A stretch of 64,000 bases of DNA from Exiguobacterium marinum DSM 16307 (GTDB lineage Bacteria > Bacillota > Bacilli > Exiguobacteriales > Exiguobacteriaceae), in contig NZ_KK211189.1 of assembly GCF_000620845.1 (NCBI RefSeq), positions 2,449,878 through 2,513,877 of the forward strand, read 5' to 3'. This document shows, in pieces, positions 34,043-36,814 of this stretch. The first letter of the stretch is position 1. Each line of letters starts with the position of its first letter. A program made the position numbers and the translations under genes. The notes beneath the pieces were generated by a model. That model was given only the letters and a program-made list of their open reading frames with translations. It did no database searches and was not told where the DNA came from.

Positions 34043-34068
34043 ACACACGTCTTAAGGGGGACATATGT

Positions 34069-35535
34069 ATGAAACAGATTATTGTGGTTGGTGCCGGACT
34101 AGGCGGACTCAGCGCTGCCGTCACGCTTGCTGCCCGTGGCTATGATGTCACAGTTATTGAAAAAAATGAACATGTCGGTGGAAAACTCATGCCTGTCATC
34201 ACTGACGGTCACCGGTTTGACTTCGGCCCGAATACGATTACGATGCCGGATGTATTTCGCTCAGTCATCCGAAACAGCGGAGCCAATCCGGATGACTATT
34301 TTGAGTTGATCAAACTCGAGCAACATACCGTCAATCATTTTTCAGATGGCTCATCGTTCACTTTTAGTACGGACCGGGCACAACTTGAAGCAGAAGTCCG
34401 TCGATTGACCGGTGATCAAATGAAGCAAAATCAAATACACGCTTACTTAGATGAGGCAGAGAAGCTGTTCCGGATCGCGAATGAACGTTTCTTTACGCGG
34501 ATGGAGACAAAATTAGACCCTGGTCTCTGGGCGGACATGGTCAAAGTACACCCGCTCCAAAGCTTGCATGCCCTCCATAAGAAATACTTTAAAGACCCAC
34601 GAATCATCCAGTCCCTTGATCGCTATGCAACATATATCGGAAGTAGTCCATACGTGACACCCGGCACCTTCGCTCTCATCTCACATTTAGAGTTGAATGA
34701 AGGCGTCTACTTCGCAAAAGGTGGCAACTGGAATATCGCAAAAGGTTTCGCTAAGCGGGCGAGTGAACTCGGGGTAACATTCCGTCTCGGACATGAAGTG
34801 ACGAAGATTGAGGTGTTGAATGGAAAAGCACATGAGGTCGTCGTCGATGATGAGGAAGTCATCTCTTGTGACGCCGTTCTTCTTAACGGGGAGTTGCTCA
34901 CTCAATATCCACGACTCGTCGCCGCGAAAGACCGCCCTTCCTTCCCGGTCCCGACACGAGACACGGTGGAACCGTCAATTTCTGCGTTCGTCTTGATGAT
35001 CGGGTTATCGAAGCGATTGAATCTTGCCCATCATAACGTCTATTTCGCTGACGACTACGAACGAGAATTTCGGGCACTCTTTCAAGAAGCACGATATGCA
35101 GATGAGCCGACCATCTATATATCAAATTCGTCCGCGACCGATCCATCCATGGGCGAGGCGGGCGACAATCTGTTCATCCTCGTCAACGCCCCCGCCCACC
35201 TGACCGAAATCGATGCCGTTACGTATGAACATCTGATTCGTCGTCGTTTGCGTGAATTCGGTGTGGATTGGAACGATGAGGAGGTCCTCTATCATAAAAG
35301 AGTGACGCCCCAAGACTTGACCCGTGATTTTTATGCGTACTATGGCGCACTTTATGGTACATCGGCCAACTCGAAAAAAGGAGCCTTTTTCCGACCAGCT
35401 GCTCGGTCGACAGACGTGTCGAACATCTGGTTCGCAGGTGGTTCGACCCATCCAGGAGGCGGTAGCCCGATGGTCACGCTTTCAGGACAATTCGCTGCGC
35501 GCTCGATGTTAGAGGACATACCTCTGACAATATGA
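34069..35535 (+). CDS. CrtP/CrtNb-like carotenoid oxidase (CrtI family)
   Basis: The 488-residue FAD protein of the phytoene desaturase family has N-terminal GAGLGGLSAAVTLAARG with EKNEHVGGK (about 7-42) and C-terminal IWFAGGSTHPGGGSPMVTLSG. The late motifs (YGALYGTSANSKKGAFFRP, PMVTLSGQ, AHHNVYFADDY) resemble staphylococcal CrtP, which oxidises a terminal methyl group, more than the desaturase CrtN. SD TAAGGGGGA lies 7 bases upstream. Last gene of the rightward half; the small-RNA gene begins 60 bases beyond. Confidence 0.85.
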   Translation: MKQIIVVGAGLGGLSAAVTLAARGYDVTVIEKNEHVGGKLMPVITDGHRFDFGPNTITMPDVFRSVIRNSGANPDDYFELIKLEQHTVNHFSDGSSFTFSTDRAQLEAEVRRLTGDQMKQNQIHAYLDEAEKLFRIANERFFTRMETKLDPGLWADMVKVHPLQSLHALHKKYFKDPRIIQSLDRYATYIGSSPYVTPGTFALISHLELNEGVYFAKGGNWNIAKGFAKRASELGVTFRLGHEVTKIEVLNGKAHEVVVDDEEVISCDAVLLNGELLTQYPRLVAAKDRPSFPVPTRDTVEPSISAFVLMIGLSKRLNLAHHNVYFADDYEREFRALFQEARYADEPTIYISNSSATDPSMGEAGDNLFILVNAPAHLTEIDAVTYEHLIRRRLREFGVDWNDEEVLYHKRVTPQDLTRDFYAYYGALYGTSANSKKGAFFRPAARSTDVSNIWFAGGSTHPGGGSPMVTLSGQFAARSMLEDIPLTI

Positions 35536-35559
35536 ACATTTTGTGAACGTGAGTTTCGA

Positions 35560-35591
35560 CACTTGTCGACAAGTGAGAGACGTGATAATAT
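35560..35591 (+). promoter_or_regulatory. promoter and palindrome before the small-RNA gene
   Basis: -35-like TTGTCG (35564-35569), 16-base spacer, extended -10 TGA-TAATAT (35583-35591). The -35 is embedded in a perfect 16-base palindrome, CACTTGTCGACAAGTG (35560-35575), which may be an operator. Transcription would begin near 35598. Confidence 0.5.
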
Positions 35592-35597
35592 CATATT

Positions 35598-35924
35598 CGA
35601 GTTCAAACAGTTTTGTAACGTTTGTTACACCTGTAGCGATCGAATGGCTTCCCCGAGCCAAATCGCGTTTTGAACTTGTCACACCCGAGAAAGTGATGAG
35701 CGAGTTTCCCCACTCGTATCCCGTAGTTGAAACAGCTTGCGTATGATGTTCCCCCTTAGTCCATCAAGCATCCTGTTTCAGCGAAGATGTCCCAATGATT
35801 CATTCCCCATGAATCCCGGCACATCTTTAGGGCTTCATCACAAATCGATTCATTCATTTCCCCGATGAATGAATCACATAACGCTTACGCCACTTTTGGT
35901 CCCCCGCCAAAAGTGGTTTTTTTT
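35598..35924 (+). ncRNA. candidate regulatory small RNA with six UCCCC-loop hairpins
   Basis: In this 440-base gap between convergent carotenoid genes I see no reading frame but a chain of perfect hairpins. TGTAAC-gttt-GTTACA (35614-35629) comes first. Then: GGCT-tccccg-AGCC (35646-35659) with outer GCGAT/ATCGC; CGAGT-ttcccc-ACTCG (35701-35716); TGATG-loop-CATCA (35744-35766, loop TTCCCCCTTAGTC); GATTCAT-tcccc-ATGAATC (35797-35815) with outer AAGATGT/ACATCTT; an 11-bp stem with ttccccg loop (35847-35875); and the terminator stem CCACTTTTGG/CCAAAAGTGG with tcccccg loop (35890-35916) and eight T. The same C-rich loop in every hairpin is the pattern of SD-targeting sRNAs such as LhrC and RsaA/RsaE. 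The 5' end is predicted only. Confidence 0.75.
35890..35924 (+). terminator. terminator of the small-RNA gene
   Basis: The perfect 10-bp stem CCACTTTTGG/CCAAAAGTGG, with loop TCCCCCG, is followed by eight T. Confidence 0.9.
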
Positions 35925-35936
35925 GCGCAAAAAAAA

Positions 35937-35961
35937 CTGTAGACGCATGAAGCGCCTACAG
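35937..35961 (-). terminator. terminator of the crtM unit
   Basis: Reading leftward, the stem CTGTAG-CGC/GCG-CTACAG is followed by TTTTTTTTG, 14 bases past the crtM stop codon. Confidence 0.88.
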
Positions 35962-35974
35962 CTATCTTGACATC

Positions 35975-36814
35975 TTATAGTTTTGCTAATAATTTCCCTT
36001 TTTGTAAAGTTGATACGTACGCCCGTTTTGTGAAGACATCGTATTGATTTGCCCGCGCTGCATCTAAAATCCCCTCATAGAGAAGAGCTGCCGCCTGCAC
36101 CGGTTTTCGGCTCGCAAGTGGATACAGATGATGGGTTGCTCGGGCTCGCTCATACAAGGACTCTGCTCGAGTCGCCATCGCCTCCCATAATTCGATAAAG
36201 GAAGGCGTCACTTCATGTTGGCGCATTTTCTCTTCACTCACACCGTATTGTCGCATCATCGTACGTGGTAAATAGATTCGATCCCGATTCAAGTCTTCTC
36301 CGACATCTCGTAAAATATTCGTTAATTGCATCGCGATACCAAGGTCGATAGCGCCTTGTCTTAACTGAAGTTTTGTCTCAGCGTCTTGATTCGGGACAAG
36401 AATCGGGAGAAGCATCAGACCGACTGTACTGGCCGCATAATAACTATATTGTTCGGTCTCTTCGAGTGTCTCATACCGCGACTTATGTAAATCCCATTTC
36501 ATGCCTTCTGCCAACTCGAAGAAAGGGTCGACGTCCATCTCATAGCGCTTCCATACATCTCGAAGGGCGACCCATAACGCTTCATCTTGATCATAATCGG
36601 CTAAAAAACGGTCGAAATCATGCAAAAATGCTGCCAAACTCTCTTCTGGACGGTCTGATTCATCGACCGCATCGTCGAGTGTCCGACAGAATGTGTAAAC
36701 AGCCATGACCGCCTGCCGATCTGGTTTTGAGAGCAAAGAGAAGGCCCGATAAAAAGTCAACGAGCCCTTCTTCATGATTTCCTCACATTGACGATACGCT
36801 TCTTGTGTCGTCAC
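35975..36814 (-). CDS. crtM: dehydrosqualene (4,4'-diapophytoene) synthase CrtM
   Basis: The 279-residue enzyme joins two farnesyl diphosphates into the C30 carotenoid precursor. The Asp-rich motifs are CRTLDDAVDESD (about 43-54) and LTNILRDVGEDLNRDRIYLP (about 163-182, DxxxD), with the CEEIMKKGSLTFYRAF start as in staphylococcal CrtM. C30 rather than C40 is inferred from the CrtN/CrtP-like neighbours. The start at 36814 is GTG, with GGGGGCA upstream, and overlaps the crtN-like gene by 32 bases; an ATG at 36775 with GAGG is an alternative. Confidence 0.92.
   Translation of the reverse strand: MTTQEAYRQCEEIMKKGSLTFYRAFSLLSKPDRQAVMAVYTFCRTLDDAVDESDRPEESLAAFLHDFDRFLADYDQDEALWVALRDVWKRYEMDVDPFFELAEGMKWDLHKSRYETLEETEQYSYYAASTVGLMLLPILVPNQDAETKLQLRQGAIDLGIAMQLTNILRDVGEDLNRDRIYLPRTMMRQYGVSEEKMRQHEVTPSFIELWEAMATRAESLYERARATHHLYPLASRKPVQAAALLYEGILDAARANQYDVFTKRAYVSTLQKGKLLAKL

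Follow-up and report, generated by a model that had tools for sequence, protein, structure and literature searches.

The window analysed here is a stretch of 64,000 nucleotides (nt) from Exiguobacterium marinum DSM 16307 (contig NZ_KK211189.1; it is part of the chromosome, and its genome, G000, has 2.81 Mb). It contains a gene for a small RNA with six hairpins, each presenting UCCCC in its loop, in the gap between the convergent genes crtP (34069-35535, plus strand) and crtM (35975-36814, minus strand), both named from a reading of their protein sequences. The RNA belongs to a family that is real, strongly selected and encoded on the plus strand. It shares an upstream element with an RsaE/RoxS-like RNA of the same genome, and its loops, above all that of the third hairpin, are complementary to G-rich ribosome start sites of energy-metabolism genes, which it probably binds. 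The reading that we favour, and hold to be reasonably probable, is that of a trans-acting, RoxS-like multi-loop repressor, which would be co-induced with the RsaE/RoxS-like RNA by a ResD-type regulator and would lower enzymes of the tricarboxylic acid (TCA) cycle and of redox metabolism. In window coordinates, the gene and its surroundings are composed as follows:

35598..35924, plus strand: small RNA gene, about 327 nt; 38/38 family genomes, fold z of -10.86, no Rfam match
35533..35546, plus strand: upstream element TGAACATTTTGTGA, shared with the RsaE-like RNA, at roughly -66 to -53 relative to the presumed start; candidate site for a putative ResD-type activator
35563..35591, plus strand: promoter, with -35 TTGTCG, a 17-nt spacer, -10 TAATAT and a TG one base before the -10
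35598..35678, plus strand: 5' domain, in which CGAGUUCAA pairs with UUGAACUUG and encloses hairpin 1 in the minimum free energy (MFE) fold; both arms are recognisable in both genera
35646..35659, plus strand: hairpin 1 (H1), GGCU-UCCCCG-AGCC
35701..35716, plus strand: hairpin 2 (H2), loop UUUCCCCA
35744..35766, plus strand: hairpin 3 (H3), loop UUCCCCCUUAG followed by NN; predicted main target-binding loop
35797..35815, plus strand: hairpin 4 (H4), loop UUCCCCA (UCCCCG in the sister genus)
35847..35875, plus strand: hairpin 5 (H5), loop UUCCCCG (UCCCCG in the sister genus)
35890..35924, plus strand: hairpin 6 (H6) and intrinsic terminator, loop UCCCCCG, T8 tail, found by terminator scan
35935..35963, minus strand: crtM terminator, distinct from the small RNA, found by terminator scan

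The six hairpins, which a preliminary description of this DNA had called perfect, were all found at their positions, each with UCCCC in its loop, the last being followed by eight T up to 35924. The adjective applies less well to H3, whose stem of 5 bp (4 bp in the sister genus) closes a 13-nt loop and is kept only partly in the MFE fold; H3 is structurally the weakest hairpin, yet its loop sequence is among the best conserved. The RNA has an MFE of -113.6 compared with a mean of -65.5 for shuffled sequences (z = -10.86), none of the 100 shuffles being as stable. UCCCC occurs six times, against a mean of 1.5 and a maximum of five in 500 dinucleotide shuffles, and falls five times within hairpin loops of the MFE fold (mean 0.28, maximum two, again in 500 dinucleotide shuffles). 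For E. sibiricum (L093), the RNA contains five UCCCC, four of them in hairpin loops, where 300 shuffles reached maxima of four and three, respectively. The fold score (z about -10.9) and the excess of UCCCC loops over shuffles bear out the earlier view that chance would hardly put the same motif in six loops. As in other RNAs of the UCCC type, the UCCC motifs are conserved and, by prediction, unpaired.

The family was sampled in 38 genomes, 19 of the genus of the window and 19 of its sister genus. The RNA was recovered by DNA search in 19/19 genomes of the former and at loci anchored on CrtM in 19/19 of the latter, where the DNA search alone gave short, weak matches; it is therefore present in 38/38 family genomes. 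In both genera it lies 3' of crtP, between the convergent crtP and crtM. Among the 19 genomes of the window's genus, the mean pairwise identity per 50-base bin is 0.84-0.99 over the RNA (35598-35947) and lower in the flanks, with 0.68-0.88 for crtP as far as 35497 and 0.60-0.86 from position 35998 onwards. High values (0.96 and 0.86) also occur in the bins that hold the end of crtP, the upstream element and the promoter. Between genera, the sequence outside the loops is mostly replaced. In one species (L016), about 1.1 kb of other DNA (about 1885-2985 of the locus) separates the RNA terminator from crtM, and the RNA is kept with one loop base changed; in another (L018), crtM lies close by after the RNA.

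Stems and loops were compared in 35 distinct sequences (19 of the window's genus and 16 of the sister genus), derived from 48 loci, 10 of which are named records repeating the sister genus. Watson-Crick pairs changed on both sides were found in 24 of the 35 scored stem pairs, although the change events are fewer than the cells of the alignment because many of them represent one difference between the two genera. Pairing is retained in 1217 of 1225 stem cells; when whole 3' arms were redealt among sequences, 79% were paired on average (maximum 84%, 500 runs), and 69% when arms were exchanged between genera. The comparative check proposed in the preliminary description was thus carried out, and the homologous gaps display both compensatory stem changes and kept loops. 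The H1 loop UCCCCG is identical in 35/35 sequences, with double changes in one of four stem pairs. That of H2 is kept in 19/19 sequences of the window's genus and reads ACCCA (15/16) or CCCCA (1/16) in the sister genus, which therefore has five UCCCC loops and one CCCA loop; its stem has double changes in three of four pairs. The H3 loop UUCCCCCUUAG is identical in 35/35, bearing in mind that this motif had been used to collect the RNAs. The H4 loop is UUCCCCA in 18 sequences, UCCCCG in 15, UCCCCCG in one and UUCCCUA in one (L016), on a stem with double changes in three of five pairs. H5 and H6 keep UCCCC in 35/35, with double changes in 8/8 and 8/10 stem pairs, respectively.

The same alignment informs on the strand. 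Read on the plus strand, G-U pairs occupy 33 cells (11 kinds) and A-C mismatches, which would be G-U pairs on the minus strand, only two cells (one kind). This count, the conserved promoter and the conserved T-tailed terminator agree that the plus strand corresponds to the RNA. Transcription would start near 35598. A consensus promoter scan chose a nearby alternative (TCGACA/TATCAT, 35566-35594), and the pattern TTGT[AC][CG], 17 nt, TANNAT fits 38/38 family genomes. Protein sponges of the CsrB/RsmZ type carry one loop motif, GGA, on many hairpins, and the repeated loops of the present RNA resemble this layout. The complementary strand would indeed expose GGGGA, with GGA in every loop, and csrA is present in the genome, so that a minus-strand RNA acting as a CsrA sponge might be envisaged. 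Nevertheless, the transcribed strand as judged from the G-U count, promoter and terminator carries UCCCC rather than GGA in its loops, the sole minus-strand promoter-like site (35619-35590) faces away from the RNA, and the crtM terminator lies between crtM and the RNA. We consider a working RNA on the minus strand barely credible.

The upstream element links this RNA to another one. The sequence TGAACRWTWTGTGA is found exactly upstream of the RNA in 37/38 family genomes, and one base off in the remaining one (L054). Searched genome-wide, its exact form occurs at two places in G000 and two in G010, namely this RNA and the RsaE-like RNA, and a backward control had no matches in any of four genomes (G000, G010, G023 and G024). 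The distance from the element to the CTTGT of the -35 is 29 nt at this RNA (six loci) and 30 nt at the RsaE-like RNA (two loci), whose promoter carries CGTGAACAWTATGTGA; the RsaE-like promoter of G024 contains only a degenerate form. The two RNAs have the element in common at the -65 position, where roxS has its ResD-type sequence. ResD/SrrA is an activator of roxS/rsaE in B. subtilis and S. aureus, and a sequence around -65 is conserved there (PMC4409812). By analogy, the same ResD-type protein would bind the element at both RNAs, and the six-loop RNA seems to be switched on together with the RoxS/RsaE relative. In one species of the sister genus, the element also precedes a gene resembling NADH oxidase/CoA-disulfide reductase (L284, G024:C5:65302).

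The RsaE-like RNA itself is not retrieved at the Rfam cut-off. The RsaE model gave sub-threshold matches in 4/38 family genomes, with scores of 35.6-39 bits where the cut-off is 79 and, for one genome, E-values of 7.6e-5 to 4.2e-4; the B. subtilis control was positive. By DNA search, the locus is present in 19/19 genomes of the window's genus (G000:C2:2227021-2227230, minus strand; L270/L281/L327) and in 0/19 of the sister genus, in which only that of G024 is known, via the Rfam model. It contains ACCCCUUU and CUUUCUCCCA, the latter a stretch that we take to be RsaE-like. Its start has a repeat, TGTGAAATCAATCACAA, that resembles a Rex site, and there are C-rich loops in its hairpins, that of the terminator among them. 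The Rex consensus given in PMC2883068 is TTGTGAAW4TTCACAA. This G000 locus looks like a divergent but true RsaE/RoxS relative lying below the Rfam cut-off, which suggests that this cut-off misses relatives in Exiguobacterium. The idea that the genus lacks RsaE and that the six-loop RNA replaces it, raised by a first search (0/1), was discarded given the sub-threshold matches and the 19/19 loci.

Candidate targets were searched in five genomes with the complement of H3 followed by a start codon (YTAAGGGGGA-N2-12-ATG), setting aside the rows that are the antisense of the RNA itself (L191, L193 and L200), and the translations of all 72 matching rows were read. In G000, the 11 matches were read as a sugar-ABC-type permease, rocA, an unknown gene, an acyl-CoA dehydrogenase, sodA, ribF, sucC, etfA, crtP, purM and purC. 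Seven of 10 N-terminal pieces matched their own family, six in Pfam above the cut-off and rocA in NCBIfam, with a score under the whole-protein cut-off, as expected for a fragment; those of the permease, the unknown gene and purM had no Pfam match. The pattern precedes sucC and etfA in 5/5 genomes each and, by reading, sodA in three of the five and an isocitrate-dehydrogenase-like gene in two. A control pattern, YTAAGGAGGA, gave 113 rows, and the 30 of these with loci included one keto-acid-dehydrogenase E1-like gene. For B. subtilis, PMC8216469 places SucC, SucD, EtfA, PpnKB and CitZ in the RoxS regulon, a list that was read after the H3 pattern had been chosen and run. In the sister genus, the start site of a leucine-dehydrogenase-like gene (L201, G023:C1:964596) contains a 14-base complement of that genus's H3; this start site and that of L206 (G023:C1:970252) are both complementary to H3, and the two genes look like members of one cluster for branched-chain amino acid breakdown.

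In 38/38 genomes, the ribosome-binding site of sucC contains a complement of the H3 loop. The sucC leader reads AUUAAAGGGGACUAAGGGGGAA in 19/19 genomes of the window's genus (one with AUCAAAG), where H3 and sucC can form 14 perfect pairs, GGACUAAGGGGGAA, in 19/19, and CUAAAGGGGUUAAGGGGGA in 19/19 of the sister genus, with the H3 complement TTAAGGGGGA in 19/19. As a yardstick, 55 start sites of the window (58 open reading frames, ORFs, minus three doubtful ones) offer complements of at most 10 bases to the whole RNA, and the first 30 of 86 AAGGGGGA places offer complements of at most 11 to H3. When the RNA is cofolded with sucC, 23 intermolecular pairs are predicted, of which 20 lie around H3, and the complex is 7.9 kcal/mol more stable than the two RNAs folded separately. 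The first G-tract of the sucC leader matches ACCCCUUUA of the RsaE-like RNA over eight bases; the sister-genus leader matches the RsaE-like RNA of the window's genus over 10 bases, and the G024 leader matches its own RsaE-like RNA over seven only.

Several observations weigh against this interpretation. The backward control of the H3 pattern still gave 29 matches, and the matched genes include some unrelated to redox metabolism (pheT in three genomes, purC in two). GGGGA is found at the Shine-Dalgarno position of 12/58 window ORFs; with G-rich Shine-Dalgarno sites this common, weak pairing would be possible for many genes, and complementarity alone is weak evidence. The H3-sucC match of the sister genus comprises only nine pairs and one G-U, and the sucC leader is conserved also as a ribosome-binding site and perhaps for the RsaE-like RNA. 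In G023 and G024, the upstream element has, besides its place at this RNA, one further place in each genome, at a protein gene (M32-peptidase-like and NADH-oxidase-like, from their translations). Local control of the crt genes is not conserved, because the crtP site differs between genera. In the window's genus, the Shine-Dalgarno of crtP (window 34044-34069) was readable in six genomes and not in the other 13; five of the six have UUAAGGGGGA, complementary to the H3 loop, and one has UAAAGGGGGA. In the sister genus, it is AAGGAGG in 9/10 genomes. On these grounds crtP was dropped as a conserved target.

Other explanations account for part of these data. The RNA could be a local element, such as a 3' untranslated region or an insulator of the crt genes, without a role in trans, as its position between convergent crtP and crtM in both genera would permit; its own promoter-like sequence in 38/38 genomes, the loops kept while stems change and the L016 locus, where the RNA persists although parted from crtM, make this very improbable. 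A protein sponge with the CsrB/RsmZ layout, whose repeated loops would titrate a protein binding C-rich loops, for example a KH-domain protein, is unlikely, even though selection by a protein ligand would lead to what is observed, uniform loops on stems whose sequence has changed, and nearly all H1, H4, H5 and H6 of the sister genus share the loop UCCCCG. H3 keeps four extra loop bases (UUAG) after its C run, which lengthen the match to the target start sites, and the promoter element is common to a C-rich RNA of the base-pairing kind. A role as sponge for G-rich small RNAs, one or several, in the manner of RosA for RoxS with the roles reversed, appears quite improbable: C-rich loops would bind such RNAs, and pairs of this sort are described for B. 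subtilis (PMC8216469), but here the start-site matches are conserved.

We therefore return to the trans-acting repressor, the reading that fits best. The preliminary proposal of a blocker of ribosome-binding sites is partly supported, now with specific candidate targets identified by complementarity. The RNA of about 327 nt would be made from a promoter of its own between crtP and crtM, and its six C-rich loops would base-pair with Shine-Dalgarno sequences that are rich in G (AAGGGGGA type) and so impede the binding of ribosomes. A ResD-type regulator would induce it together with the RsaE/RoxS-like RNA, and TCA and redox enzymes would be lowered, sucC being the best candidate target and etfA the next. 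On sucC, the H3 loop would pair over the Shine-Dalgarno, with another G-tract next to it as a possible site for the RsaE-like RNA. The sequence itself shows the RNA gene with its strand and structure, its conservation, the upstream element common to both RNAs and the complementarity; expression, the involvement of ResD, pairing in the cell and repression are all steps that we infer. More tentatively, and with clear doubt, the two RNAs may form one redox circuit, in which a single ResD-type signal raises both, the two dock next to each other on adjacent G-tracts of the sucC leader, the RsaE-like RNA at UAAAGGGG and H3 at CUAAGGGGGA, and one six-loop molecule, thanks to its many loops, holds several mRNAs simultaneously. 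The anatomy of the RNA suits clean tests, with six separable loops and one best target. Such an RNA would illustrate how the RoxS/RsaE redox regulon can be divided between two RNAs under common control, and would tell whether having many copies of a single anti-Shine-Dalgarno loop produces a dose response that is not obtained with three.

By kind, this RNA stands with the UCCC anti-Shine-Dalgarno RNAs (RsaE/RoxS, LhrC and RNAIII), and it is outside their sequence families by the tests made. At the gathering score, Rfam 15 matched no family on the window, LhrC and RNAIII included, both of which its library holds. The RsaE/RoxS model (RF01820) had no match at 35400-36000 up to an E-value of 10, and nothing credible was obtained from Rfam at E up to 10. 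RsaE/RoxS resembles the six-loop RNA in its C-rich regions directed against ribosome-binding sites, in a B. subtilis regulon with SucC and EtfA, whose start sites are complementary to H3 here, and in an activator sequence around -65, where the six-loop RNA has its candidate activator site. It differs in its length (115 nt) and in having four C-rich regions instead of six C-rich hairpin loops. No Rex-like site was seen by eye at the start of the six-loop RNA, which reads CATATTCGAGTTC (no site model was run), the Rfam model does not match it, and its genome has an RsaE-like RNA besides. The LhrC RNAs of Listeria likewise bind a G-rich start site through UCCC sites, which are redundant and lie in several loops, that of the terminator included (PMC4132741), whereas here six hairpin loops are borne by one RNA gene per genome. 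RNAIII of Staphylococcus aureus is also a long multi-hairpin RNA, with the UCCC loops of H7, H13 and H14 acting on ribosome-binding sites (PMC3861533), but its 514 nt contain three loops of this sort, and it codes for a peptide and is controlled by agr; the six-loop RNA has no convincing peptide gene and another promoter. The earlier remark that six loops exceed the known examples fits the three UCCC sites of LhrC, the three of RNAIII and the four C-rich regions of RoxS given in the parts of these sources at hand.

The RNA had also been called undescribed, in keeping with the lack of a match in Rfam 15 and of any description in the literature searched. An Exiguobacterium genome paper counts predicted small RNAs, none being named in its accessible part (PMC10837837), and that of PMC5399880 mentions only Prokka and Infernal annotation. 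The six-loop layout, the promoter element with its twin at an RsaE-like RNA and the conservation of the matches to sucC and etfA are new, and the family, in all 38 genomes searched of a widespread extremophile group, is without a match in Rfam 15.

A scan of genome contigs with the H3 pattern, which covers only RNAs keeping the H3 motif, returned 76 stretches, 25 of them titled Exiguobacterium, and no convincing relative outside the family. In the other 51, the surrounding 420-nt fold holds no UCCCC hairpin loop in 40 cases, one in 10 and two in one; these matches were accordingly taken as chance. Finally, a 16-codon ORF, MSEFPHSYPVVETACV, lies over H2 (35694-35744), being open in 16/19 genomes of the genus and running on in three. 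As it has no Shine-Dalgarno-like G run before it and no counterpart among sister-genus ORFs, we judge it to be probably a by-product of the conserved hairpin.
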